This document shows, piece by piece, positions 3,642 through 16,005 of a stretch of DNA of 44,053 nt. The position numbers were made by a program, and so were the translations under genes. Under the pieces are notes generated by a model. It was not told the DNA's origin. It saw nothing but the letters and a program-made list of their open reading frames with translations, and searched no databases. Numbering within the stretch: the stretch's first letter is position 1; each line of letters opens with the position of its first letter. The DNA is from Actinomadura logoneensis (GTDB taxonomy: Bacteria; Actinomycetota; Actinomycetes; Streptosporangiales; Streptosporangiaceae), in assembly GCF_003428695.1 (NCBI RefSeq), contig NZ_QURH01000299.1, positions 1 to 44,053 on the forward strand. Direction: 5' to 3'.

Positions 3642-4597
3642 CGTCCCGTCCGATCCATGGTCTCCCGTATCCCCGCGATGCCGGCGCACAGGACGGCCGC
3701 CGCGGCGGTCACCCGTCCCGAGATCCTCACCGCGCGCCGGATGTCCGCGACCTCCGGCGACCGTCCGTCCCCCAGCTCGGGCCGCTTCTCCACCTGCCCG
3801 CCGTAGTTGTTCGCCCCGCCGAGCCGGACGTCCAACGCACCCGCGAAGGCCGCCTCGCAGCGCCCCGCGTTGGGGCTCGGGTGGGACGCGCCGTCCCGCC
3901 GCAGCACCCGCCACGCCTCGGCCCGCCGTCCGCGCGGCGCGCACGCCACCGCCAGCAGCCCGGTCAGCCGCGCAGGAACCCAGTTCACGGCGTCGTCGAA
4001 CCGCGCCGACGCCCACCCGAACCGCTCGTACCGCGCGTTGCGGTACCCGACCATCGCGTCCAGCGTGTTCGCGGCCCGGTAGGCCAGCAGCCCCGGCACC
4101 CCGGCGACCGCGCCCCACACCAGCGGCGCGATGGACGCGTCGGAGGTGTTCTCGGCGACCGACTCGACCGTCGCCCGCGCCAGCTCGTCCGCTCCTAGCC
4201 CGGCGGGATCACGCGCGCACAGGTGCCCGAGCCGTCCCCGCGCCGCCTCGAGATCACCGTCCTCCAGGTAGCCGCTCATGACGCGTCCCTCACGCCCCAG
4301 CGACGTCCCGCCGAGGACGGCCCACGTCGCGAGCGCCGTCACCCCCGCACGCACGAGCGGCCTCTCCCGGACGCCCCGCTCGACAACACAGCCCCCAGCG
4401 ACCGTCCCGCCCACCAGCACCGCGGTGTACACGACCCCGCGCGCACGAGAGTCGGCGTACACCTTCTTCTCCAGCGCGGAAGCGACCCGTCCGAACGCCG
4501 CCACCGGATGCCCACGCCTCGGATCACCCAGCACGGCGTCCAGCGCCACCCCGGCGAGCAGCCCCACGGCCCTAGACGAGACGCGCATCGAGCTCAT
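3638..4597 (-). CDS. cobD: Adenosylcobinamide-phosphate synthase
   Basis: CobD/CbiB family membrane protein that joins an aminopropanol(-phosphate) arm to adenosylcobyric acid, the step after CobQ. It has 319 residues, the usual length. Family motifs are [14 protein letters not shown] near residue 25, [18 protein letters not shown] near 145, [18 protein letters not shown] near 240 and [11 protein letters not shown] just after. Hydrophobic stretches ([46 protein letters not shown]) fit an integral membrane protein. The chosen ATG overlaps the end of the phosphotransferase gene by 26 bases; Met4 (4588) would shorten the overlap and is possible. The stop overlaps the cobQ start by ATGA. Confidence 0.94.
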
Positions 4598-5393
4598 CCC
4601 AGTGGACGTCCAGCCAGTCCTGAGCCCGGCGGATCCGCGCCCCCGCGCCGCCCCGCCACAACCGCGCCCAGGCGCCGCCGCTCTCGGCCCGCGCCCTCAT
4701 CGCCCGGTAGGACCGCTCGAACCGCAGCCGCGCCGCCGGCAGCAACTCCCGCCGCTCCCCCGCCGAAAGCCCGTACGCGTCGGCGAAGACCCGCATCCGC
4801 CGTCCCGCGTCCACGTCGTACAAAAGATCGTCCCGGTCGGCGGGATCGGAGATCGGCGCCCAGTGCCGCAGCGCCGTCACCACGTCGTACATCCGCGTCG
4901 TCGGCCGGGCGAGATCGAAGTCGATCAACGCGACCGGCACACCGTCCCGGAAGACCACGTTCTCCGGCGTCACGTCGCAGTGCCCGATCAGCTCCGGCGG
5001 CCCGTCCAGGTTCGACGCCGCCACGTCCCACGGATCGTCCGGCCGCGTCCCGTACGACACCACGGCCTCGTGGTACCGCCGCAGCAGCCGTCCGACCCCG
5101 GCCAGCGCCTCGTCGCTCACCGCCCACCCGGGCATCGGCCGGTGCGGACACTCGCCGTCCACCCAGCTCAGGATCTCCCGCCCGCGCTCGTCCACCCCGA
5201 GCATCCGCGGCGCCCCGTCGAACCCGACCGCCTCCAGATGCCGCAGCAGCCCGTGCACCGCGGGACTGTGCGCCCCCATCACCCGCCGCACGGTCTCCCC
5301 GGCGCGCACCACGCCCTCGGTGACATCCCCGCCCTCGAGCGGCACCTCGATCTCCAGCACCACAAGCCAGAACGATATGACCTGTTCGCCCAT
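4572..5393 (-). CDS. APH/choline-kinase-fold phosphotransferase
   Basis: Small-molecule or metabolite kinase of the aminoglycoside phosphotransferase fold; the substrate is unknown. The catalytic loop is IGHCDVTPENVV (HCD in place of the usual HGD) and the metal-binding motif is LIDFDLARP. The frame is open back to 5585, but that extension reads through tRNA-Arg, so the start is placed at ATG 5393 (MGEQVISFWLVVLEIEV), giving 273 residues. It lacks the long N-lobe of true antibiotic kinases and most resembles the short phosphotransferase family common in actinomycetes. It lies upstream of and overlaps cobD, so it is probably co-transcribed with the cobalamin genes, but I see no direct evidence for a role in that pathway. 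Confidence 0.85.
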   Translation of the reverse strand: MGEQVISFWLVVLEIEVPLEGGDVTEGVVRAGETVRRVMGAHSPAVHGLLRHLEAVGFDGAPRMLGVDERGREILSWVDGECPHRPMPGWAVSDEALAGVGRLLRRYHEAVVSYGTRPDDPWDVAASNLDGPPELIGHCDVTPENVVFRDGVPVALIDFDLARPTTRMYDVVTALRHWAPISDPADRDDLLYDVDAGRRMRVFADAYGLSAGERRELLPAARLRFERSYRAMRARAESGGAWARLWRGGAGARIRRAQDWLDVHWDELDARLV

Positions 5394-5858: not shown

Positions 5859-6845
5859 TTGGTGTTGCGGGCCCGGATCGTGTTGCTGTGCGCTGAGGGC
5901 GAGACGATCGCGCGGGTCGCCGAGCGGGTCGGGGTCTCGCGGAACACGGTGTCGAAGTGGCGGTCGCGGTTTCTGGCCGACCGGCTGGACGGCCTGGCCG
6001 ACCAGACGCGTCCGGGGCGGCCTCGCACGATCACCGATGCGCAGGTAGAGCGGGTGGTGACCGCGACACTGCAGGACACTCCGGGGTCCGACACGCACTG
6101 GTCGACTCGGTCGATGGCGGCCTCGACGGGGATGTCACAGTCGACGATCTCGCGGATCTGGCGGGCGTTCGGCCTCAAACCCCGCATCGTCCAGACCTGC
6201 AAGCTGTCGAGCGATCCGCAGTTCGTCGACAAGGTCCGCGACGTGGTCGGGCTGTACATGAACCCGCCCGACAACCCGCTGGTGCTGGCGGCGGACGAGA
6301 AGTCGCAGATGCAGGCGATCGACCGGACCGCCCCGATCCTGCCGATCATGCCGACCACCCCGGCCCGGATGACCCACGGCTACATCCGGCACGGCACCAC
6401 CAGCCTGTTCGCCGCGCTGGACCTGTCGTCGGGATCGGTAATCGCCCAGCACTACCGCCGGCACCGCCACCAGGAGTTCCTGCGGTTCCTCAAACTCATC
6501 GACGACGCCGTCCCCAAGGACCTGGACCTGCACCTGGTGCTGGACGACTACGCCACCCACAAGACCGAGCCGGTCAAGAAATGGCTGATCCCGCTCCCGC
6601 GGTTCCGCCTGCACTTCACCCCGACCAGCTCGTCCTGGCTCAACCTGGTGGAGCGCTGGTTCGCCGAACTCACCAACCGCAAACTCCGCCACTCGGCCCA
6701 TCGCAGTGTCGTCGAACTCGAACGCGACGGCTGGATCAACTAGTGGAACAAAGACCCCAAACCGTTCGTCTGGACCAAACCCGCCGACGACATCCTCGAA
6801 ACCCTCGCCGCATACTGCCAACGAATTAACGACTCAAGACACTAG
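5859..6845 (+). pseudogene. IS630-family transposase, interrupted by an amber stop
   Basis: DDE transposase of the IS630 family. The first visible start is TTG 5859 (LVLRARIVLLCAEGETIARV), so the usual 40 or so N-terminal residues are missing or altered. A helix-turn-helix (VAERVGVSRNTVSKWRSRF), ADEKSQ (first Asp), VLDDYATHK (second Asp) and WLNLVERWFAEL (Glu) are all intact. At 6741-6743 an in-frame TAG follows ERDGWIN, yet the same frame continues as WNKDPKPFVWTKPADD and ends INDSRH at 6845, the normal IS630 C-terminus. A two-residue deletion just before the stop is also likely. I could not find matching terminal inverted repeats. The 5570-5820 stretch upstream has no gene I can support. 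Confidence 0.85.
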
Positions 6846-6949
6846 CGAAAATTCTGTCCCCGCCCGGACCTGTCCATGTAACCGCGACGGTCGGTGGCGC
6901 TGCTTCTACCACCGGAGCATAAGTTTCCAGAATTCTTCTACACCTTGCA

Positions 6950-7681
6950 CTATGATTCCGCCTCTTCAATCAACTGCTGCATCTGCCCCAGATTAAGAGC
7001 TCGAGCCTCCCAAACCATCTCGGCAACATGGTTGAGTATTGGATCCTGCACCACGTCAGCGAGAGCAATTCCGGTCAACGCTGACATCTGCCTTACGGGC
7101 AACCCAAGCGCAACACTGCTCCCGACGAGAAATTCGGAAGTCAATTCCCTATCCCCCCTCTCGATCCGAGAAATGGTTGATGGTGAAATATACAGAGCCC
7201 CTCCAGTCGTCCGGTGCAGCATTTTAGCCATCGCACTTAGGTCCATATTTCGGACCTCAAACAACTGCACAATAAGGGAAGGTATAGTTGTCTGACCACT
7301 TTCACCATAAGAGCTAATTTGAGATAGACCTTCCACTACTTCCAGCGGAAAAGAGCGTACTCGCCTGCGCAGCTGGAGTATTCGATCAAGCGATAGGCCC
7401 ATAGAAATGCCCACCAGGACGGAAATCCATGGCCTAACCCTCTCATCCATCGGAAGTAGCAGGTCTTCAGGAATTTTAATACCGGCAATCAGCAATAGGT
7501 CGACCTCATGAAAATTTAGAACAGGGGCAATTTGACGCACGATCGCCGAACTTGGCGTTTCACCTTCCAACACTGCCCGGAGCTCTACTTCCAACACTCC
7601 AGACAAGCACGATAGCGACCGCGCGTCCAGTTCACTGCACGCCATCAGACGTGGCAACACTTTCGAGAAATTCAGATACAT
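6950..7681 (-). CDS. XRE-type regulator with two helix-turn-helix-like halves
   Basis: Probable DNA-binding regulator of 243 residues. The C-terminal half (about 130-210) carries a clear Cro/CI helix-turn-helix ending ISPSTISRIERGDRELTSEF. The N-terminal half (about 12-65, ELDARSLSCLSGVLEVELRA and following) looks like a second, more diverged one. Start ATG 7681 has an AGGGAA sequence upstream. Base composition is much closer to 50% GC than the flanks, and codon use differs, so this gene was probably acquired. A truncated gene fragment ends 24 bases upstream on the same strand, so the two probably formed an operon before an IS630 remnant replaced the rest. Its target is unknown. Confidence 0.75.
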   Translation of the reverse strand: MYLNFSKVLPRLMACSELDARSLSCLSGVLEVELRAVLEGETPSSAIVRQIAPVLNFHEVDLLLIAGIKIPEDLLLPMDERVRPWISVLVGISMGLSLDRILQLRRRVRSFPLEVVEGLSQISSYGESGQTTIPSLIVQLFEVRNMDLSAMAKMLHRTTGGALYISPSTISRIERGDRELTSEFLVGSSVALGLPVRQMSALTGIALADVVQDPILNHVAEMVWEARALNLGQMQQLIEEAES

Positions 7682-7705
7682 AACGAACCGTTCCCTGGCC
7701 GTGCA

Positions 7706-7865
7706 TTAGTCCCTCCCCGACTCAAATCGGTTAAAGTAATCCCATTTAGCTCCGCTCATATCCACACCGTGCCGAGAAAATACAGTCCGAGCAACATCCT
7801 CCAGGGGCATGTATCCATCGGCATTATAAGGCCAATAATGCCCAGAGAAATGTCGCGAGGAAGAC
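7706..7865 (-). pseudogene. C-terminal fragment of an unrecognised low-GC gene
   Basis: The last 50 or so codons of a gene, ending FNRFESGRD with TAA at 7708-7706. The frame runs on upstream into an IS630 transposase remnant; the change falls near 7866, where GC content jumps. Readable pieces are YWPYNADGYMPLEDVARTVF and SRHGVDMSGAKWDYF. I do not recognise the family. It probably formed an operon with the XRE regulator whose start is 25 bases downstream. Confidence 0.5.
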
Positions 7866-8128
7866 CGCTCGGCGGTGAGGCAGGCGGTGATGGGATCGGG
7901 GCGGTACTGGATCGTGCGTAGTCCGTGGCGTAGTGCGCGCATGAGGTGGTCGGGGCTGGTGAAGTGGGTGTTGGCTTGGCTGCTGCGGCGTAGCAGGAAC
8001 CAGATTCCCTCGACCGGGTTGAGGTTGGGCGCATAGGGAGGCAGGCAGACGACGGTCAGCCAGTCGCTGGCTTCGATGATGGCTCGCAACTGACCGGTCT
8101 CGCCCGGATCGGGGCGAGACATATGCGC
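7866..8128 (-). pseudogene. IS630-family transposase C-terminal remnant
   Basis: About 85 codons with the end of a DDE domain: WLTVVCLPPYAPNLNPVEGI contains the catalytic Glu, and the stretch through QYRPDPITACLTA matches the family C-terminus. The N-terminal two-thirds are absent; upstream the frame runs into a tRNA-like scar. The sequence differs from the 5859-6845 transposase, so it is a separate, older element of another subgroup. Confidence 0.75.
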
Positions 8129-8193
8129 GCCAGCAGCGCCGACGGCGTCGTTCTCGCACGACGTGCCCGGACGGCTCAGTCTGACGTACCTCA

Positions 8194-8224
8194 GTCGGGG
8201 GTTCGAATCCTCCTGGCCGTGCCA
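8194..8224 (+). other. 3'-end remnant of a tRNA gene (possible attachment-site scar)
   Basis: The sequence has a perfect T-loop (GGTTCGAATCC), a T-stem GGGGG/CCTCC with one G-T pair, a 7-nt acceptor half (TGGCCGT), G73 and an encoded CCA at 8222-8224. It is followed 57 bases later by a strong terminator. No matching 5' acceptor or anticodon arm lies upstream. The acceptor half does not pair with tRNA-Arg at 5493, so it comes from a different tRNA gene. Confidence 0.5.
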
Positions 8225-8280
8225 CCCTCTGAACTGCGACAACACAAACGCAGTCGTGATTGAGTCCTGTCGACTTTGCC

Positions 8281-8322
8281 GGGCCGCCCCCGTCATCACG
8301 ACGGAGGCGGCCCGGCGGTTTT
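8281..8322 (+). terminator. Rho-independent terminator behind the tRNA remnant
   Basis: Stem GGGCCGCC (8281-8288) pairs with GGCGGCCC (8306-8313); inner bases CCGTC/GACGG extend it almost to the loop. A TTTT run at 8319-8322 follows. It fits the original terminator of the truncated tRNA gene. Confidence 0.75.
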
Positions 8323-8339
8323 CCGCGTTCTCCGCCTAG

Positions 8340-9699
8340 TACTACAGCCTGATTTTGTGATGTGGGAGCCAGCGTCGCCAGTAGTGGCTGCTACGGGCTC
8401 GGGTCTGGTGTCGGCGGCGTTGTGTGGACCAGGCCAGGACGAAGTCCACGGGGCGGCCGGGGGTGGTCAGGTGTGCCAGGAGACGGCGGATCTCTGCTGG
8501 TGAGAGGCGGACCAGGCCGTTTGTGCTTTTGGGGCGTGGGCGGCGGTGACGGCGAGGTAGGCGTGGGCGAGCATCGCCAGCGTGATGTGCCGGTGCCAGC
8601 CGTCGAAGCGGCGGACCTGATACTGGTCCAAGCCGACCTCGTTCTTGGCCGACTGGAAGCACTCCTCGATCGCCCAACGTGCTCCGGCGACACCGACCAA
8701 TTCCTCCAGCGCGGTGCCGGCGGGGCCATGACACAGGTAGTAGGCCAACTCGAGTTCACCCTTGGTGTCTGGGATCAGGCTCCGGCGCACCAGGAGCCAT
8801 CGCCGGTAACCGGGCTCGGCCTCAAAGTGCACATCGGCCAGCGCCCAGTCATACATCCTCGGGCCCTTGGCGCCGTTTCCGCAGGACAGACGCTTCCATG
8901 CCTCAGGCGGAGCGCTAGCAGCCACCGTGTCGGCACGCACATCCCCGGCACGCAGACTCATCGCGACGCTCTGGCTCTTGGGCACCGCGACCACATAGTT
9001 CACCCGGCGTTGCTCCAGGAAGCGGCGGAACTTGAAGTCCATCCCATACGCCTCGTCGGCAGTCGCCCACGACGCCGACACTCCGGCGTCCAGCGCCCGG
9101 GCGAGCATCGCCTGGGCCAGTACCGGCTTGGTCGCGAACTCGATACCGGCGGGAATGCCAGCCTGGCCGCAGCGCGCCGGGTCGGCCAGCCAGGACTTGG
9201 GCAGATACAACTCGGCATCGATCAGCGCCCGCCCCAGCGGAGAGGCGAAAGCCAAGAACACTCCCAGCTGGCAGTTCTCCACCCGGCCCGCCGTGCCGGA
9301 GTACTGGCGCTGCACCCCGGCCGACTTGGCGCCCTTCACGGGCGAACCCGGTCTCCACGATCAGCACCGCGTCCCGGTGCCCGAGGTTCTCCACCACATA
9401 ATCGCGCAGGTCATCGCGCATCCGGCGAGGGTCCCAACGGGCACTGGTCAGCAACCGCTGCATCCGCCCCGGCGACAGATCACCCGCGGCCTCGGCCAAC
9501 TGCCAGCCGTTCTTGCGTTCTACCGGCGCCAGTAAACCCCTCACATACGCCCTCGCCTGCCGCCGCGGCTCCACCCGCCCGAACCGGTCAACCACCCGCG
9601 CCAACAACGCATCCAGCCCCGACACCCACACCTGCAGATCATCAGCAGCCACCACACCCCGAAACTACAGACCCCACATCACGAAATCAGGCTGTAGTA
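8340..9699 (-). mobile_element. Complete IS701-type insertion sequence (1360 bp)
   Basis: Terminal inverted repeats are 27 bp: the left end at 8340-8366 begins TACTACAGCCTGATTTTGTG, and the right end at 9673-9699 is its reverse complement with one mismatch (T/C). The element is flanked by CTAG at 8336-8339 and 9700-9703, a 4-bp target duplication of the YTAR form typical of IS701. The ends look recent although the transposase inside is broken. Confidence 0.92.
8342..9655 (-). pseudogene. IS701-family transposase with two frameshifts
   Basis: The reading is split over three frames. Residues from 9655 to about 9340 run MVAADDLQVWVSGLDALLAR to AVLIVETGF. A frameshift near 9338 moves to the frame KGAKSAGVQRQYSGTAGRV, which carries TADEAYGMD and WAIEECFQSAKNEVGLDQYQ. 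A second frameshift near 8540, at an AAAA run, moves to NGLVRLSPAEIRRLLAHL and the stop at 8344-8342 inside the left repeat. The family motif IVDETGF reads IVETGF here, so the first catalytic Asp is missing by an in-frame 3-base deletion. The protein should be inactive. Movement would need a transposase supplied from another copy. Confidence 0.88.
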
Positions 9700-10395
9700 C
9701 TAGGCCACGACTGATTTCTCGGTGGTCATCAGGTAGCGGGCGAGGATGACGTCGCCGATGGGACGGACTTCGGCCAGTGCCATCCGGTTGGCAGAGTGGT
9801 GATGGAAGACGCCTGGGCCCACAAAGCGCGGGGCGTTGGTGTCGCCGACGAAGAACGGGGCGATCACGAGCTGGAGTTCGTCGGCAAGGCCGGCGGTGAG
9901 GAACTGGGTGTGGACGGTTCCGCCGCCCTCGACCATGAGTCGCTCCACGCCGCGGGAGGCCAGGTCGTGAAGGATCGCGGTCACCTGGACCGGGTCGCCG
10001 GCGTCGACGACGGTGGCGACCCCGCCGAGCGTGTCGCGGCACTTGTCGACCGCCGGGGACGCGCAGTACACGATCTTTTCGACATCGCCGGCGGTGAAGA
10101 ACTTGGCGGCCGGGTCAAGGTCGCCGCGTGCGGTGAAGGTGACCTTGATGGGGCTTTCCGGCAGGCCGCGCTCGCGGCGTCCCTGGCGGCGGGCTTCGCT
10201 GCGGACCAGCAGGCGTGGGTTGTCCTGGCGGATGGTGTTGGCTCCGACCAGGATGGCGTCGACGCTGGCTCGGACGTCGTCAACGCGGTCGAAGTCTTCG
10301 TCATTGGACAGCAGCAGACGCTGGTCGGTCGCGTCGTCGATGTATCCGTCCACCGACGCTGCACACGACAGCAGCACGTACGGGCGTTCACTCAT
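9700..10395 (-). CDS. RibD C-terminal-domain / dihydrofolate-reductase-like reductase
   Basis: NAD(P)H-dependent reductase of the RibD C-terminal (dihydrofolate-reductase-like) superfamily, 231 residues. Motifs seen are the N-terminal MSERPYVLLSCAASVDGYID, the GANTIRQDNPRLLVRSE segment and the GVERLMVEGGGTVHTQFL nucleotide-binding region. It lacks the RibD deaminase domain, so it resembles the stand-alone diaminohydroxyphosphoribosylamino-pyrimidine reductases, but paralogues with other substrates are common. ATG 10395 overlaps the stop of the XRE-SLOG gene by ATGA. The stop codon lies inside the CTAG duplication of the IS701 element, so the insertion left the protein intact but cut off whatever lay downstream. 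It may serve the divergent peptide locus; that is inference. Confidence 0.85.
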   Translation of the reverse strand: MSERPYVLLSCAASVDGYIDDATDQRLLLSNDEDFDRVDDVRASVDAILVGANTIRQDNPRLLVRSEARRQGRRERGLPESPIKVTFTARGDLDPAAKFFTAGDVEKIVYCASPAVDKCRDTLGGVATVVDAGDPVQVTAILHDLASRGVERLMVEGGGTVHTQFLTAGLADELQLVIAPFFVGDTNAPRFVGPGVFHHHSANRMALAEVRPIGDVILARYLMTTEKSVVA

Positions 10396-11261
10396 GTGAG
10401 ATCTCCATGTTCGTTGGTGATCAGCTGTTCGACGATCCGGACGAAGTCCTCAGCCGGGTCTGTGGTGACGTTGAGGGCAGTGAAGTCCTGCTCGGAAATC
10501 CAGGACCGTAGACGTGGATCCTGAGCGGCGCGGTGGTAGAAGCGGCGTGCCGTCCCACCCGAGCCCGGTAGCGGGATGACTTTCTTGCCGACGGCCAGAG
10601 CGAGGTCGATCTCGGTTTGGGTGCCGGCGGCGCCACCGAGGACCAGGACGTACTCGGCATCGTGGATGACGTTGCGGTGTCCGAACAGTCCGAAGGCTTG
10701 GGCGATTTCAGGTGGGCGGTACTGGTCGGCGATGTAGGTCACGACCTCGATACCGACCCCGACGGGGCCGTGGCTGACCTGGTAGCCGTTGCTCATGACG
10801 AGCCTGGCGAGGCACCGGATGGCCGCGTTGATCACGCTGGCGTCGGTGTCGTGCGCACGGCTTCCGCAGATCGCCACCTTCACACCTCGTGCGGGTTCGG
10901 CTTGTTCGGTGGGGCGCGGGCTGCGGTCGTGCTGGGCGGTCCGCAATGCCTCGGGGTTGGTCGGCGCGAGGCCGAGCAGGAGGCGGGCCTGGTCGGGCAT
11001 TTGTAACCCGTCGGCGATGCGGGTGAGGACTTCGATGTCGGAGACACGGCCTTGGCGGACACCACGGATCCAGTTGGAGATGTCGGATCGGTCGTGCTGA
11101 GTCAGCAGTGCCAGTTGGGTCTGGGTGCAGTGGGCGAAGGTGTCCAAGAACAGGCGGAGAAGGTCGGCCACGTCCCGGCAGGCCAGGGCACGTTGGATGT
11201 CTTCCCGGCCCCAGAACGCCACCGGGACACTCCCCGGATCGAACACCTTGCGTTTGGTCAC
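10392..11261 (-). CDS. XRE helix-turn-helix protein fused to a SLOG/LOG-like nucleotide-binding domain
   Basis: 289 residues. The N-terminal part (about 40-100) is a Cro/CI-type DNA-binding domain including LLTQHDRSDISNWIRGVRQG. The C-terminal part (about 126-285) is a Rossmann-like SLOG/LOG domain with VAICGSRAH at 129-137, SHGPVGVGIEVV at 163-174 and the GGAAGTQTEIDLAL loop at 209-222, which in this superfamily binds a nucleotide or nucleotide-derived ligand. A DNA-binding domain fused to a ligand-binding domain suggests a nucleotide-responsive repressor or activator. It is divergent from the peptide/JmjC operon, and palindromes lie in the shared promoter region. Translationally coupled to the reductase by ATGA. 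Alternatively the SLOG domain is catalytic. Confidence 0.82.
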   Translation of the reverse strand: MTKRKVFDPGSVPVAFWGREDIQRALACRDVADLLRLFLDTFAHCTQTQLALLTQHDRSDISNWIRGVRQGRVSDIEVLTRIADGLQMPDQARLLLGLAPTNPEALRTAQHDRSPRPTEQAEPARGVKVAICGSRAHDTDASVINAAIRCLARLVMSNGYQVSHGPVGVGIEVVTYIADQYRPPEIAQAFGLFGHRNVIHDAEYVLVLGGAAGTQTEIDLALAVGKKVIPLPGSGGTARRFYHRAAQDPRLRSWISEQDFTALNVTTDPAEDFVRIVEQLITNEHGDLT

Positions 11262-11347
11262 GTCGGTCGCGCCTTCGGCTCACACGTGGTCCCGCCCGCG
11301 AGCGTAGCGCCGTCAGCCCCAGGCGCAATCCCAAACGGTTGACGGGT

Positions 11348-11381
11348 CCCGTGGACTGGTTCCACGGGCTGTGGCCACGGG
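11348..11381. promoter_or_regulatory. Palindromic operator candidate in the divergent promoter region
   Basis: CCCGTGG (11348-11354), a 7-base spacer, then CCACGGG (11362-11368) form a perfect dyad. GTGGCCAC at 11371-11378 is a second perfect palindrome, and CCACGGG recurs at 11375-11381. It lies between the XRE-SLOG gene (minus) and the peptide gene (plus), where an autoregulator would bind. Confidence 0.5.
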
Positions 11382-11470
11382 CTCGTTCACTGGGCCGAAC
11401 GGCCGAATCACCGGAAGGTAGGGCTCAGTAGGCAGCGTCACAAGGTGTGGCGGGCCGGGAAGGAGTCCTG

Positions 11471-11593
11471 ATGGACGCCCAGAACAGCGGGGGCCTGGTG
11501 GTGGCCGTCGAGAAGATCGTCGCGGCACGCGGCAGGGCGACCCAGCCGTCGGACGGCGGCTCGTCCGGCAAGTCCGACATCAACGACGGCTGA
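11471..11593 (+). CDS. 40-residue peptide, candidate precursor of a modified peptide
   Basis: Short gene with an excellent ribosome site (AAGGAG at 11460-11465, five bases before ATG 11471). The product begins MDAQNSGGLVVAVEKIVAAR, an amphipathic helix-like leader, followed by a polar Gly/Ser/Asp-rich tail ending GKSDINDG. There is no Cys, no signal peptide and no membrane segment. The stop is nine bases before the JmjC gene, which lacks its own ribosome site and is probably coupled to it. A helical N-terminus, a flexible hydrophilic C-terminus and tailoring-enzyme genes directly downstream are the usual arrangement of a RiPP precursor. The tail has Asp, Asn and Lys, residues that JmjC/cupin oxygenases hydroxylate in other proteins. 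That it is a modification substrate is inference. Confidence 0.75.
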   Translation: MDAQNSGGLVVAVEKIVAARGRATQPSDGGSSGKSDINDG

Positions 11594-11602
11594 CCGAACC
11601 TC

Positions 11603-12793
11603 ATGATCGACGATCTCATCGTCGAGGTCCTGGGCGGGGACGACTTCCTCGCCCAGGACCTGGGCCGCGCGCACCGCGTCTACCCTGCTCCCAAGGATGA
11701 ACAGGACCGCTTCGCTGGCCTGCTCACCTGGAGAGCGCTGAACCAGCTCCTCGATACCCACCGGTTGGAGCCGCCCCGGTTTCGGCTGGCGATCGATGGG
11801 ACCACGGTTCCGACCTCGGAGTACTGTCAGCGCCGCACCTACCGGCGGATGCAGCCATGGGAGGCTCCCCAGCCGCATCTGGTCGCCGAACAGCTCCGCG
11901 CCGGTGCCACCCTGGTCCTGGACGCGATCGAGGAAATGCACCCGCCGATCCGCAACCTGGTGTGCGGACTGGAGCGGCACCTGCGGACCGGTGTGCAGGT
12001 CAACTCCTACGCCTCGTGGACGGCCACCGAGGGCTTCGGCGTGCATTGGGACGACCACGACGTCATCGTCCTGCAGATCTCCGGCGCCAAGCGGTGGCGC
12101 ATCTACGGACCCACCCGGCCCGCGCCGATGTACCGGGACGTCACCTTCGAAGACCAAGCACCCAGTGAACCCATCGACGAGTTCACCCTGCGCGCGGGAG
12201 ATGTGCTGCACGTCCCCCGCGGCTGGTGGCACGCCGCCGCAGCCTCCGCCGGCAAACCGTCCCTGCACCTGACCTGTGGCCTGGCCACCCACACCGGAGT
12301 CGACCTGCTCGCATGGCTGGTCGATGAGCTCCGCGCCGAGCACGCCATCCGCCAAGACCTTCCGCGGCCAGGCGACCAGCACGGCCAAGACTCCTGGCGG
12401 GCCCAGGCCGCCAAGCTCGTGCAGGAGCGCCTGAACGACCCGAAACTGATCAGTGCCTACTTCAACAGCCGCGACGCCGCCTACGGCGCACATGGCGGCT
12501 TCTCGCTCCCCCACGCCGTCGCCGAAGCCCTGCCGACCGACCCGAGCCTGTCGGTGCAACTGGTGACCCCACGCGCCGTCACCCGAACGGGCGGCGACAC
12601 GGTCACGCTCGAGGCAGCGGAACAACGCTGGATCCTCGACCAGCGCGCCGCGCCTGTCCTGCGCATTCTCACCACCGGCCAGCTCACCACGCTGGGCTGC
12701 CTCGCCGAACGATCCGCAACCCCTCTGGAGGACATCGCCGGCCTCATCGATCAGCTGCTTCGGGCCGGGGTCTTGGCCGTGTGGGAGCCGTGA
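11603..12793 (+). CDS. JmjC/cupin-4 Fe(II)/2-oxoglutarate oxygenase (RoxA/NO66-like)
   Basis: 396 residues. The double-stranded beta-helix core holds the iron site H148-x-D150 in GVHWDDHDVIVLQISGAKRW and the distal His210 in GDVLHVPRGWWHAA, the same order as the bacterial ribosomal oxygenase YcfD/RoxA. GAKRWRIYGP is the usual turn after the first motif. The C-terminal 100 residues (QRWILDQRAAPVLRILTTGQ onward) look like the winged-helix tail of that family. Known relatives hydroxylate Arg, His, Asp, Asn or Lys side chains in proteins. Here it sits nine bases after a 40-residue peptide gene and overlaps the next gene by TGATG, so the natural inference is that it hydroxylates that peptide. A ribosomal target is the alternative. 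Confidence 0.88.
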   Translation: MIDDLIVEVLGGDDFLAQDLGRAHRVYPAPKDEQDRFAGLLTWRALNQLLDTHRLEPPRFRLAIDGTTVPTSEYCQRRTYRRMQPWEAPQPHLVAEQLRAGATLVLDAIEEMHPPIRNLVCGLERHLRTGVQVNSYASWTATEGFGVHWDDHDVIVLQISGAKRWRIYGPTRPAPMYRDVTFEDQAPSEPIDEFTLRAGDVLHVPRGWWHAAAASAGKPSLHLTCGLATHTGVDLLAWLVDELRAEHAIRQDLPRPGDQHGQDSWRAQAAKLVQERLNDPKLISAYFNSRDAAYGAHGGFSLPHAVAEALPTDPSLSVQLVTPRAVTRTGGDTVTLEAAEQRWILDQRAAPVLRILTTGQLTTLGCLAERSATPLEDIAGLIDQLLRAGVLAVWEP

Positions 12794-13698
12794 TGGCGCT
12801 GCTCGGCTTGGGAACCTACCGCTGCCGCGATGTGTCCGCCGCTGCCCAGGCGGCCATCGCGGCAGGGCTTCCCCTGATCGATACCGCACCCGTCTACGCT
12901 CACGGCACCGCCCAAACCCACCTGGGGCGCCACCTGATCAACCATTCCCAGGTGCGGGTGTCGAGCAAGGTCGGGCACATGACCCGTTCACAGGCAGCCG
13001 CCGCGCGAGTCGCGGGCGTCGTCACCGTCCAGCAGGCCGAGCGCGGGCACTGCCTCACGCCCGACTACATCGACCATCAACTGGCCCAGAACCTGGCCGA
13101 GCTTCGGCGAAGTCGGCTGGACCTGCTCTATCTCCACAACCCTGAGCACGACATCCACACCGACCGGCAGCATCTCATGCACCAGATTCGTGATGCGTTC
13201 GAGGCCTGCGAACGAGCCGCCCACCAGGGCCGCATCACCGGATACGGCATCGCTACCTGGAGTGGCTTCTCAAGCAGCGCCTTCACCGTCCCGGAACTGC
13301 TCGCCGCTGCACGGCAGGCCGCCGGCGGCCCCGACCATCACCTCGCCGCAATTCAACTTCCGGTCAATCTCGTGCAGCTCGCCCCGCTCTCCCAGTCCCT
13401 GAAGGGAGGGGGCCCCGTCGCGCAGGCAAGCCATGCGGGACTTGAAGTTTGGGCGTCCGCGCCGCTCAACGGTGGTGAACTCACCACCTTGGTCAGCCAA
13501 GAACTGGCCGAGCTGATCGGACCAGGGCTGTCGCCCAGCGGAGCCGCACTGACCGTGGTCGCCTCCACCCCAGGTATCACCGGCGCCCTCCTCTCGGCCT
13601 CGACTACGGCACACTTGCAGGACGCACTCGTCACCTTCCAACGCCCACCGCTCCAGCCCGAGCACCTCCGGGAGATCTGCCGTGTTCTCCGAACCTGA
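12793..13698 (+). CDS. Aldo/keto reductase family oxidoreductase
   Basis: NAD(P)H-dependent reductase with a TIM-barrel fold. Numbered from ATG 12793 (MALLGLGTYRCRDVSA), the catalytic tetrad is complete: Asp30 and Tyr35 in LIDTAPVYAHG, Lys59 in VSSKVGH and His115 in LLYLHNPEHD. Its length, 301 residues, is normal. The start overlaps the JmjC stop as TGATG; GTG at 12781 and 12790 are in-frame alternatives. Its stop overlaps the kinase gene by 17 bases. In this setting it could reduce a carbonyl formed on the peptide or on a small molecule joined to it; that is inference from position only. Confidence 0.87.
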   Translation: MALLGLGTYRCRDVSAAAQAAIAAGLPLIDTAPVYAHGTAQTHLGRHLINHSQVRVSSKVGHMTRSQAAAARVAGVVTVQQAERGHCLTPDYIDHQLAQNLAELRRSRLDLLYLHNPEHDIHTDRQHLMHQIRDAFEACERAAHQGRITGYGIATWSGFSSSAFTVPELLAAARQAAGGPDHHLAAIQLPVNLVQLAPLSQSLKGGGPVAQASHAGLEVWASAPLNGGELTTLVSQELAELIGPGLSPSGAALTVVASTPGITGALLSASTTAHLQDALVTFQRPPLQPEHLREICRVLRT

Positions 13699-14530
13699 CG
13701 ACCCCGCCGTTCGAGAACGCATGCACACCGCCTTCACCACCGCAGCCGGCGAACTCCACTGTGCTCGGCTCCCAGAGGCCCCATGGGCATGGGGGCACGG
13801 CGGTCGTACCCTGGGCACCGCCGTCCTCGACGGCCCCAACAAAGCGTGGCTCCGTGTCATGGAGACGCTGGCGCACAAGCGCGGCGGCAAGCTCTGGACC
13901 GGTACCGCCCAAGCAGCCGACGCCATCCCCACCGGCATCCCACGCCCCCGACTCCTCCGCAGCCACGAATGGACCCGCGGAGACCACGCCTACCGCGCAG
14001 AACTCACCACCTACGTCGCGACGCCAGTGTGCTCGACCACACCCGCCTTGACCGCTCCCCTTGAGCTGCCCGACTCATGGTTCGGACGCCTCCGCGAAGC
14101 AGTGGAGACCCTGTCTGCTACCCCCGCACCGCCAGGACGCGGCCCAGTCATCACCCAGGACTACGTCCACCGCGCCCTACCCCGCTACGTCGGGGCGGCA
14201 GAAACAGAGACCACCGTCCACCGATGGAGCCTGGCCCACGGCGACCTCCACTGGGCCAACATCACCGCACCAGAACTCAACATCCTGGACTGGGAAGGCT
14301 TCGGCCCCGCCCCCCACGGATTCGACGCAGCCCACCTCCACGCCTACACCCTCCCCACACCCGACATCGCCGCCCGGGTACGGGACACCTTCGCCGACAC
14401 CCTGCACACCGACGAGGGCCGACAAGCCGAGCTCATCGTGGCCGCGATCATCCTCCAAGCCGCCGACCGCGACCCCGTCCACGCCCACCTCGCCCCGCTG
14501 CTCAAAGAACACATAGCTAACCTCCGCTGA
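13682..14530 (+). CDS. APH-fold phosphotransferase of the peptide locus
   Basis: Kinase-like protein of 282 residues starting at GTG 13682 (VFSEPDDPAVRERMHTAF) inside the end of the aldo/keto reductase gene. The catalytic loop is SLAHGDLHWANIT (HGD at 186-188) and the metal-binding motif is ILDWEGFGPAP (DWE at 203-205). The N-lobe is short, with LGTAVLDGPNKAWLRV as the likely nucleotide-binding strand region. The 17-base overlap shows co-translation with the reductase, so it belongs to the peptide/JmjC operon. It could phosphorylate the peptide (as the kinase domains of lanthipeptide synthetases do) or inactivate the product for self-protection. No clear terminator follows. Confidence 0.85.
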   Translation: MFSEPDDPAVRERMHTAFTTAAGELHCARLPEAPWAWGHGGRTLGTAVLDGPNKAWLRVMETLAHKRGGKLWTGTAQAADAIPTGIPRPRLLRSHEWTRGDHAYRAELTTYVATPVCSTTPALTAPLELPDSWFGRLREAVETLSATPAPPGRGPVITQDYVHRALPRYVGAAETETTVHRWSLAHGDLHWANITAPELNILDWEGFGPAPHGFDAAHLHAYTLPTPDIAARVRDTFADTLHTDEGRQAELIVAAIILQAADRDPVHAHLAPLLKEHIANLR

Positions 14531-15090: not shown

Positions 15091-16005
15091 ATGGCTGAAT
15101 CACTGGCCGGCGCCCCCAGCCTCGCCGACCGCGCTCAACAGATCCTGCACACCGCATGCCAAACCGTCGGGCTGGACCACCGTGGTGCTGAACTCCTACG
15201 GCTGCGCAGCAACGCCGTCTACAAGCTCAAAGACCCGATCATCGTGCGGATCGCCACCGCACCCACCGCCGCCGAGTGGCTGCCCGCCGTCCTGGCCGTC
15301 ACGCGCTGGCTCGACCAACACGGCTTCCCCACTGTCCGACCAACCGACCACATCACCGACCAGCCGCTGATGTGCTCTGGCGTCGCCGTCACATTCTGGG
15401 ACTACGTGCCGGCCAGCGACCTCCCCTCCACCACCAGCGAACTCGGCCGCCTCCTACGCGACCTGCACGCCTTCCCCACCCCACCGATCGCGCTCCGGCG
15501 CCTAGTCGATCCGTTGGCCAGCCTCCGCGCCAACCTCCAGCAGCATCCCGACAACCTCACACCCAGCGAACGCGGATGGCTGAGCCACCACATCACCGAC
15601 CTCACCGAGCAGTGGGAGCAGCTGCCGTTCGTCGGGCCTCCCGTCCTCCTGCACGGCGACGCCTGGATCGACAACCTGTTCCGCCACCGTGATGGCCATG
15701 TCATCCTGGGTGACTGGGACAGCGTCGCCCTCGGCCCCCGCGAATGGGACCTGATCCACAGCCACCACGGCCAGACCCGCTTCGGCCTCAACCAACACGA
15801 CGTGGACGCCTTCACCACCGCCTACGGCCACGACCTACGCGCATGGCCCGGATACGAGACCCTCCAACGCATCCGCGACCTCTACGCCGTCAGCATCCAC
15901 ATCCGCAACGCCCACGGCGACCCCTTCTCCCACCAAGAACTCAGGCGCCGAATGCGCTCCCTCATCGAAGGCACCACCGACCGCTGGTACATGAAACCCA
16001 CCTGA
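15091..16005 (+). CDS. APH-fold phosphotransferase
   Basis: 304-residue kinase of the aminoglycoside/choline kinase fold. The catalytic loop is LLHGDAWIDNLF (HGD at 188-190) and the metal motif is VILGDWDSVALGP (DWD at 208-210). The N-terminal lobe includes RLRSNAVYKLKDPIIVRIAT, typical of small-molecule kinases and distinct from the 13682 gene. ATG 15091 has GAAAGG upstream. It is separated from the peptide locus by an IS5 fragment, so it may once have been part of the same cluster or may be an independent acquisition. A hairpin follows the stop. It could confer resistance to an antibiotic, but the sequence does not identify a substrate. Confidence 0.85.
   Translation: MAESLAGAPSLADRAQQILHTACQTVGLDHRGAELLRLRSNAVYKLKDPIIVRIATAPTAAEWLPAVLAVTRWLDQHGFPTVRPTDHITDQPLMCSGVAVTFWDYVPASDLPSTTSELGRLLRDLHAFPTPPIALRRLVDPLASLRANLQQHPDNLTPSERGWLSHHITDLTEQWEQLPFVGPPVLLHGDAWIDNLFRHRDGHVILGDWDSVALGPREWDLIHSHHGQTRFGLNQHDVDAFTTAYGHDLRAWPGYETLQRIRDLYAVSIHIRNAHGDPFSHQELRRRMRSLIEGTTDRWYMKPT

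Follow-up and report, generated by a model that had tools for sequence, protein, structure and literature searches.

In a stretch of 44,053 nucleotides of Actinomadura logoneensis DNA (contig NZ_QURH01000299.1; this whole stretch is called the window below) we identified a cassette that probably makes a ribosomally synthesised, enzymatically modified peptide (RiPP), with the short first gene encoding the precursor. The cassette is one unit of four forward-strand genes between 11471 and 14530: a precursor-like peptide of 40 amino acids (11471-11593), a JmjC_2 (PF08007) 2-oxoglutarate/Fe oxygenase-like protein of 396 amino acids (11603-12793), an aldo/keto reductase (AKR; 12793-13698), and an APH-fold kinase (13682-14530). 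Our reading is based on linkage, conservation, folds, intact active sites, the profile similarity of several peptide types, and the different cores of these types. A preliminary description of the same DNA had reported six open genes in two divergent units, and all six are present, together with the overlaps it gave (ATGA at 10392-10395, TGATG at 12791-12795, and 17 bases at 13682-13698) and a ribosome site for the peptide (AAGGAG at 11460-11465, 5 bases ahead of the ATG at 11471).

The linkage between the peptide and the JmjC gene is not due to chance. By tblastn, the peptide gene was found directly upstream of the JmjC gene in all 43 loci that carry a peptide of the window's kind (type I; L031-L073, comprising three annotated-plasmid loci and 40 from named genomes), with a gap of 2-27 bases between the peptide stop and the JmjC gene in 42 of them; L073 was left out of this measurement because its JmjC gene is frameshifted. 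AKR and APH genes lie downstream in 41/41 type I loci reaching that far (L062 and L071 end before them), a few of these genes being frame-broken. We then have two genome-wide counts for the same peptide profile. In a set of 297 genomes from the order, which includes that of the window, it found 31 strong places (E < 1e-16), and ten weaker matches (E 0.002-0.009) that we regard as noise; all 31 strong places adjoin a JmjC gene, including the one at a contig end (G162, L183), where the start of the JmjC gene is visible. Among 246 Streptomyces genomes it found 36 places in 33 genomes, and each of the 36 adjoins a JmjC match, three of these genes being short or in pieces. The APH match is present in all 35 peptide-bearing Streptomyces genomes (these 33 and two others) and the AKR match in 33; in the two lacking it (G815 and G831) the APH gene directly follows the JmjC gene. 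The expectation that a conserved short peptide would precede the JmjC gene, with AKR and APH genes nearly always next, therefore holds in near relatives. The counts from separate searches were not summed, because many loci duplicate named ones; the genome on which the genus searches were centred (G391) is identical at the cassette locus to Streptomyces aureus (L067). The cassette, which occurs in many soil actinobacteria, is also plasmid-borne, for example on pSglau1 and pSV2, whose annotations list the peptide as a hypothetical protein: 148 plasmid records contain a JmjC match, 32 of them covering most of the query, and ten Streptomyces plasmid regions from these records are the basis of our statements on plasmid annotation.

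Comparison of the short genes supports their being translated into a conserved product. Amino-acid identity between clades is 0.60-0.66 in the coding frame vs 0.38-0.44 in the other two frames (39 of 44 peptides, over an ungapped block of 31 codons), and among Actinomadura relatives the differences at third codon positions number 408, against 166 and 130 at the other two (each pair counted twice). The raw ratio of nonsynonymous to synonymous differences (pN/pS) of the peptide is 0.67 in the Actinomadura group, 0.76 in Nocardiopsaceae, and 0.84 in the Streptomyces group, and that of the enzymes is lower (0.37-0.69); the peptide values are high because synonymous changes are unusually few, amounting to 0.42-0.75 of the expectation from JmjC codons, possibly through strong codon preference or an additional constraint at the DNA or RNA level. 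The codon test proposed earlier is only moderately in favour of the peptide, the raw ratio being weak evidence; the frame test is clear. The shortage of synonymous changes and the short gap before the JmjC gene would both suit a leader open reading frame that controls JmjC translation, with the enzymes acting on some other substrate. We regard this explanation as highly improbable, since cross-genus amino-acid conservation is clearly higher in the coding frame, the C-terminus of the peptide is conserved, and at one locus (L181) the peptide precedes the AKR gene, followed by APH, with no adjoining JmjC gene; this genome carries its JmjC gene on a different contig (L195), with a separate peptide.

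The window peptide has an N-terminal part with LVVAVEKIVAARGR and a C-terminal part PSDGGSSGKSDINDG. Alignment of 37 type I peptides revealed eight invariant residues (L9, R20, R22, D28, G33, D36, N38, and D39 in window numbering) and an N-terminal stretch of varying length. The C-terminal half of the precursor is rich in serine, aspartate, asparagine, and glycine. The leader motif of type I and of the type II peptides described below is roughly L-hydrophobic-x-[AGS]-x-x-x-[IL]-x5-R. The peptides had no family match in Pfam (seven peptides), NCBIfam (seven), or PHROGs (two). Most Streptomyces type I peptides have S/T/G-D-x-N-D at the very end, and elsewhere 0-4 more residues follow. In 3-thiaglutamate (pearlin) biosynthesis, a carrier peptide bears an amino acid through its conversion, and the product is then cleaved off as a small molecule. 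The short length and conserved C-terminus of the type I peptide, and AKR and APH as enzymes of small-molecule type, would be consistent with a similar carrier, on which a residue at or close to the C-terminal end would be altered and released; the extra residues found after ND in some peptides speak against this, as does the lack of a recognised ligase among the shared neighbours (no search was aimed at ligases), and we consider the carrier explanation very unlikely.

Peptides of two further kinds accompany more distant JmjC genes. Type II, found in Streptomyces, has the leader LLxAVEELxxVxDR, with SLRSDNAGSSGDAPWPGGDGNLHDSE and TQESDPTGTSAGDDGENRDGLNHPEA among its cores. All four genes (peptide, JmjC, and AKR, with the APH gene convergent or next in line) were present in 16 of 20 JmjC regions, hand-picked from the JmjC matches in the 246 Streptomyces genomes, and the remaining four (L191, L216, L217, and L224) have JmjC only. 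A type II profile gave 32 strong places in 31 of the 246 genomes, and three weak matches that are type I peptides; 29 of the 32 strong places adjoin a JmjC match. The three exceptions are G837, in which the JmjC and AKR genes are in broken pieces, G776, which has AKR and APH genes without JmjC, and G810:C23, in which the peptide is separated from an APH gene with an AKR piece by a complete type I cassette. Type III is found in Nocardiopsaceae, Thermobifida, and Pseudonocardia, with peptides like MDPIEVEVEDLAEVTSRDITAGGDNDGTDSSSDFI, located upstream of JmjC in 36/36 loci, seven of which supplied the profile (the set is L075-L112 minus L077, whose only candidate peptide is weak, and minus L106, a truncated type I locus). 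Before these wider profiles were applied, JmjC genes of about 36% identity had seemed to be peptide-less, a view that we then dropped. The counts for the three types thus place a short precursor-like gene beside the gene of a modifying enzyme, and the layout of peptides and enzymes is that of a RiPP locus.

Profile comparison with hhalign aligned types I and II along 28 N-terminal columns (95%, E 2.6e-8) and types II and III over 33 columns extending into the core (91%, E 1e-6); the type II alignment includes four odd members. The C-terminal cores differ among the three types. A conserved leader with a variable core, as expected of RiPP precursors and proposed as a check in the preliminary description, is therefore seen between types, and type I shows conservation of the core as well. 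The shared N-terminal segment with a type-specific core fits a RiPP precursor. In a tree of JmjC proteins (45 rows; L208 was dropped by the program) type II forms one group (support 100/100) and so does type III (100/98), and type I requires two changes, owing to two rows nested within it that have no known peptide. Some loci carry odd peptides: at L074 (JmjC 45% identical) there was no tblastn match and a divergent peptide was found by inspecting the upstream stretch, and L182 has a divergent peptide whose core is without aspartate or asparagine, with an AKR gene present and no APH gene found.

The enzymes can be assigned to families by sequence or predicted fold, and their catalytic residues are intact, as had been claimed; in alignments of 31-32 homologues, H148, D150, and H210 of the JmjC protein, D30, Y35, K59, and H115 of the AKR, and H186, D188, and D203 of the kinase are invariant, and N193 of the kinase is conserved at 90% or more. 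The JmjC protein belongs to the JmjC_2 family of ribosomal oxygenases by its Pfam match (PF08007, E 3e-28), its HxD...H ligands, and a NO66/MINA53/YcfD fold: its model (pLDDT 89.7) matched NO66 in Foldseek (E 4e-25), and comparison along the chain gave Z 25.6 (rmsd 7.0, 371 residues) with NO66 and Z 22.5 (rmsd 4.9, 352 residues) with a YcfD-like enzyme. The AKR has both the Pfam match (Aldo_ket_red, E 5e-19) and the D-Y-K-H tetrad. The kinase is without a Pfam match and is putatively of APH type by its predicted fold and HxD...D motif; its AlphaFold model (pLDDT 95.1, from 29 sequences) matched APH(3')-IIIa (E 7e-8) and the amicoumacin kinase AmiN (E 8e-8), from which it differs in sequence, with only about 12-16% identity. 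At the limits used, neither the AKR nor the APH profile matched a sequence in the PDB. In the JmjC model, residues 326-387 are predicted to form a C-terminal domain with the order strand-strand-strand-helix-helix-helix, which resembles the order of elements in an RRE (order only was compared); no RRE protein was in the VIA-align 2 listing, which is no evidence of absence. Relatives of single enzymes also occur elsewhere: stand-alone kinase relatives in Streptomyces (L199-L203) lie in stretches where neither JmjC nor AKR nor a type I peptide was found, and a distant JmjC relative, a cupin-domain gene on a small E. coli plasmid (L229, NC_018997.1, 4339-7540), adjoins an ABC transporter gene and a hypothetical gene.

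Known enzymes of these kinds provide precedents. JmjC enzymes are better known from ribosome and chromatin biology, and the PF08007 proteins NO66, MINA53, and YcfD have ribosomal proteins as targets, in which histidine or arginine is hydroxylated (PDB titles). They share with the cassette JmjC protein the whole-chain fold, the metal ligands, and sequence similarity, but act on ribosomal proteins, whereas the cassette JmjC gene adjoins a dedicated short peptide gene. In the available parts of two reports on biphenomycin biosynthesis, the JmjC/cupin enzymes BipG and PbsQ hydroxylate ornithine of a RiPP precursor, and the same reaction is predicted for BpmG (PMC12707348, PMC12257519). The likeness is thus a JmjC/cupin-type oxygenase, which in their case acts on a side chain of a ribosomal precursor; the biphenomycin clusters differ in having an MNIO, a B12 radical-SAM enzyme, an arginine-to-ornithine enzyme, and a TldD-type protease, and neither AKR nor APH is in the gene lists of those parts. 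None of the product names of such a cluster occurs in the ten annotated Streptomyces plasmid regions. A passage of an RRE-Finder update describes an RRE-like domain in some PF08007 proteins of fish and algae, and places the nearest bacterial homologues of these fused proteins, about 30% identical, in RiPP-like contexts (PMC12710340). The predicted C-terminal domain of the cassette JmjC protein agrees with it in the order of its strands and helices; that passage names no precursor, AKR/APH set, or bacterial family, and may concern the cassette family, so others may have seen part of what we describe. No paper with this gene set was found in the open-licence literature, subscription papers being mostly outside the search.

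From the BipG/PbsQ and PF08007 precedents and the linkage we infer that the peptide is the substrate, and likewise the residue modified, the order of steps, and the release of a product. The N-terminal half of the peptide would be recognised by the enzymes, most likely through the wing-helix-like C-terminal domain of the JmjC protein, and the C-terminal half would be the modified part. The JmjC protein would oxidise a side chain of the core, in type I most likely aspartate or asparagine (D28, D36, N38, and D39 are invariant in the 37 peptides); the AKR may alter the oxidation level of the oxidised group, and the kinase may cap it by phosphorylating a hydroxyl, as tailoring or for self-protection. 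A route through hydroxylysine and a hydroxylysine kinase was rejected, because K34 is replaced by valine in several Streptomyces peptides. Since no protease or exporter was recognised as common to type I loci, trimming and export would use host functions.

Natural variants of the cassette bear on these steps. Seven type I loci (L197, L198, and L230-L234) have no AKR gene, and their peptides lack the R-x-R motif present in 43/43 other type I peptides, where it is 4 residues before [SG]D in 42 peptides and 6 in one. In one genome (G155, locus L193) a GNAT acetyltransferase gene (4135-4728) overlaps the end of the AKR gene in the usual place of the kinase, which argues, from this one genome, for transfer of a group to a hydroxyl or amine; the capping enzyme would there be the acetyltransferase.

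Several observations weigh against a modified and released peptide. The product and the activities are predicted ones, and the raw pN/pS of the peptide is weak evidence of coding constraint. The seven loci without AKR look like one lineage, so that the correlation with R-x-R amounts to one or two events, and an eighth such locus (L186) has JmjC and APH with no peptide found. Because the L182 core is without aspartate and asparagine, a target of this kind cannot be general. No peptide was found beside JmjC in ten relatives (L186-L192, L216, L217, and L224; the tally excludes three JmjC places of the order-wide search, G243:C3, G191:C244, and G054:C1:5096623), two of which (L188 and L191) have weak tblastn peptide matches about 3-4 kb from JmjC. 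JmjC homologues lacking the peptide, which the preliminary description would have taken as a refutation, therefore exist in the form of ten distant or degraded loci, while near relatives and two further groups do have one. Finally, no protease or transporter was recognised among genes common to at least three type I loci (by our own scripted gene calls, most of the neighbour clusters not having been compared with families), and the type I core is nearly invariant, as that of a small signalling peptide would also be. These last two points, and the fact that the regulators adjacent to the cassette vary by clade, would fit a peptide that is a small intracellular regulator or signal, modified by the three enzymes reversibly or according to oxygen, iron, or 2-oxoglutarate, with nothing released. 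We see this as possible though unlikely: the core differs among types I, II, and III, whose profiles align mainly over the N-terminal part, and the cassette is patchy (31/297 genomes of the order and 33/246 Streptomyces genomes) and plasmid-borne, as is the case for accessory products. We retain the RiPP precursor as the favoured explanation.

Some members of the family might have a more specific role. FhuF is a family of ferric-siderophore reductases with a (2Fe-2S) centre, and an FhuF-like gene is located downstream of JmjC in 30/36 type III loci (Pfam FhuF_C in the two scanned). One is also present at L074, by 34-35% similarity only, where peptide and JmjC are of a different kind; none was found at the other loci examined, many of them short-flanked, nor at three full-length Pseudonocardia type III loci. 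The gene suggests iron and hence a metallophore, a hint that comes from relatives and not from the window: the JmjC protein would beta-hydroxylate the invariant core aspartate (and asparagine) to give bidentate iron ligands. That the cassettes define a new RiPP class based on JmjC oxygenation, with some members being ribosomal iron chelators, is quite unlikely in our estimate. A further gene of type III loci, ahead of the peptide and JmjC genes, belongs to the prolyl oligopeptidase family (two loci scanned); its cluster is represented in 32/38 loci. ABC-transporter-like genes are often present at type III loci too, as seen by eye.

Divergent to the cassette in the window are two reverse-strand genes, which overlap by ATGA: a RibD_C-type reductase (9700-10395; Pfam RibD_C, E 1e-41) and a regulator-like protein (10392-11261). 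The preliminary description had included both in the system, with the regulator as a nucleotide-sensing XRE-SLOG protein; its similarity to SLOG is weak, below the Pfam cut-offs, and no helix-turn-helix family was matched. The pair accompanies the cassette in 8/9 named loci from Actinomadura, Actinocorallia, and Spirillospora, the genera of the closest named JmjC relatives in the collection scanned, and in 0/35 other type I loci, so it does not belong to the system at large; it occurs only in Actinomadura relatives and is probably local. At the ninth locus (L106) the sequence starts inside JmjC; the regulator frame of L038 is apparently broken, and in two relatives (L010 and L006) the pair is missing, or visible only in part, within 1.5 kb. 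At other loci the regulators near the cassette are of DUF5753 type or TPR-like, and they differ between clades. The intergenic stretch of the nine Actinomadura-type loci contains conserved blocks. The surroundings had been described as full of broken genes, which is true of the left flank, with transposase-like genes and fragments at 5862-9655, and not of the right side, where the next gene (15091-16005) is an open frame with a Pfam APH match. Genes resembling this second APH-family gene are also near three other cassettes (L042, L044, and L071). None of the six window proteins had a PADLOC match, so a defence system is unsupported, and a phage origin is likewise unsupported, as no phage record carrying the JmjC protein was found.

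If the peptides are modified, the cassettes would represent a ribosomal natural-product family in which type I and type II each reach about 13% of the Streptomyces sample (33 and 31 of 246 genomes, respectively) and the third type is found in Nocardiopsaceae and Pseudonocardia. JmjC, AKR, and APH are not usually met together, and the combination would offer a simple four-gene system for studying how JmjC proteins recognise peptides, in which the natural variants (no AKR, no kinase, or GNAT for the kinase) may let each step be assigned.

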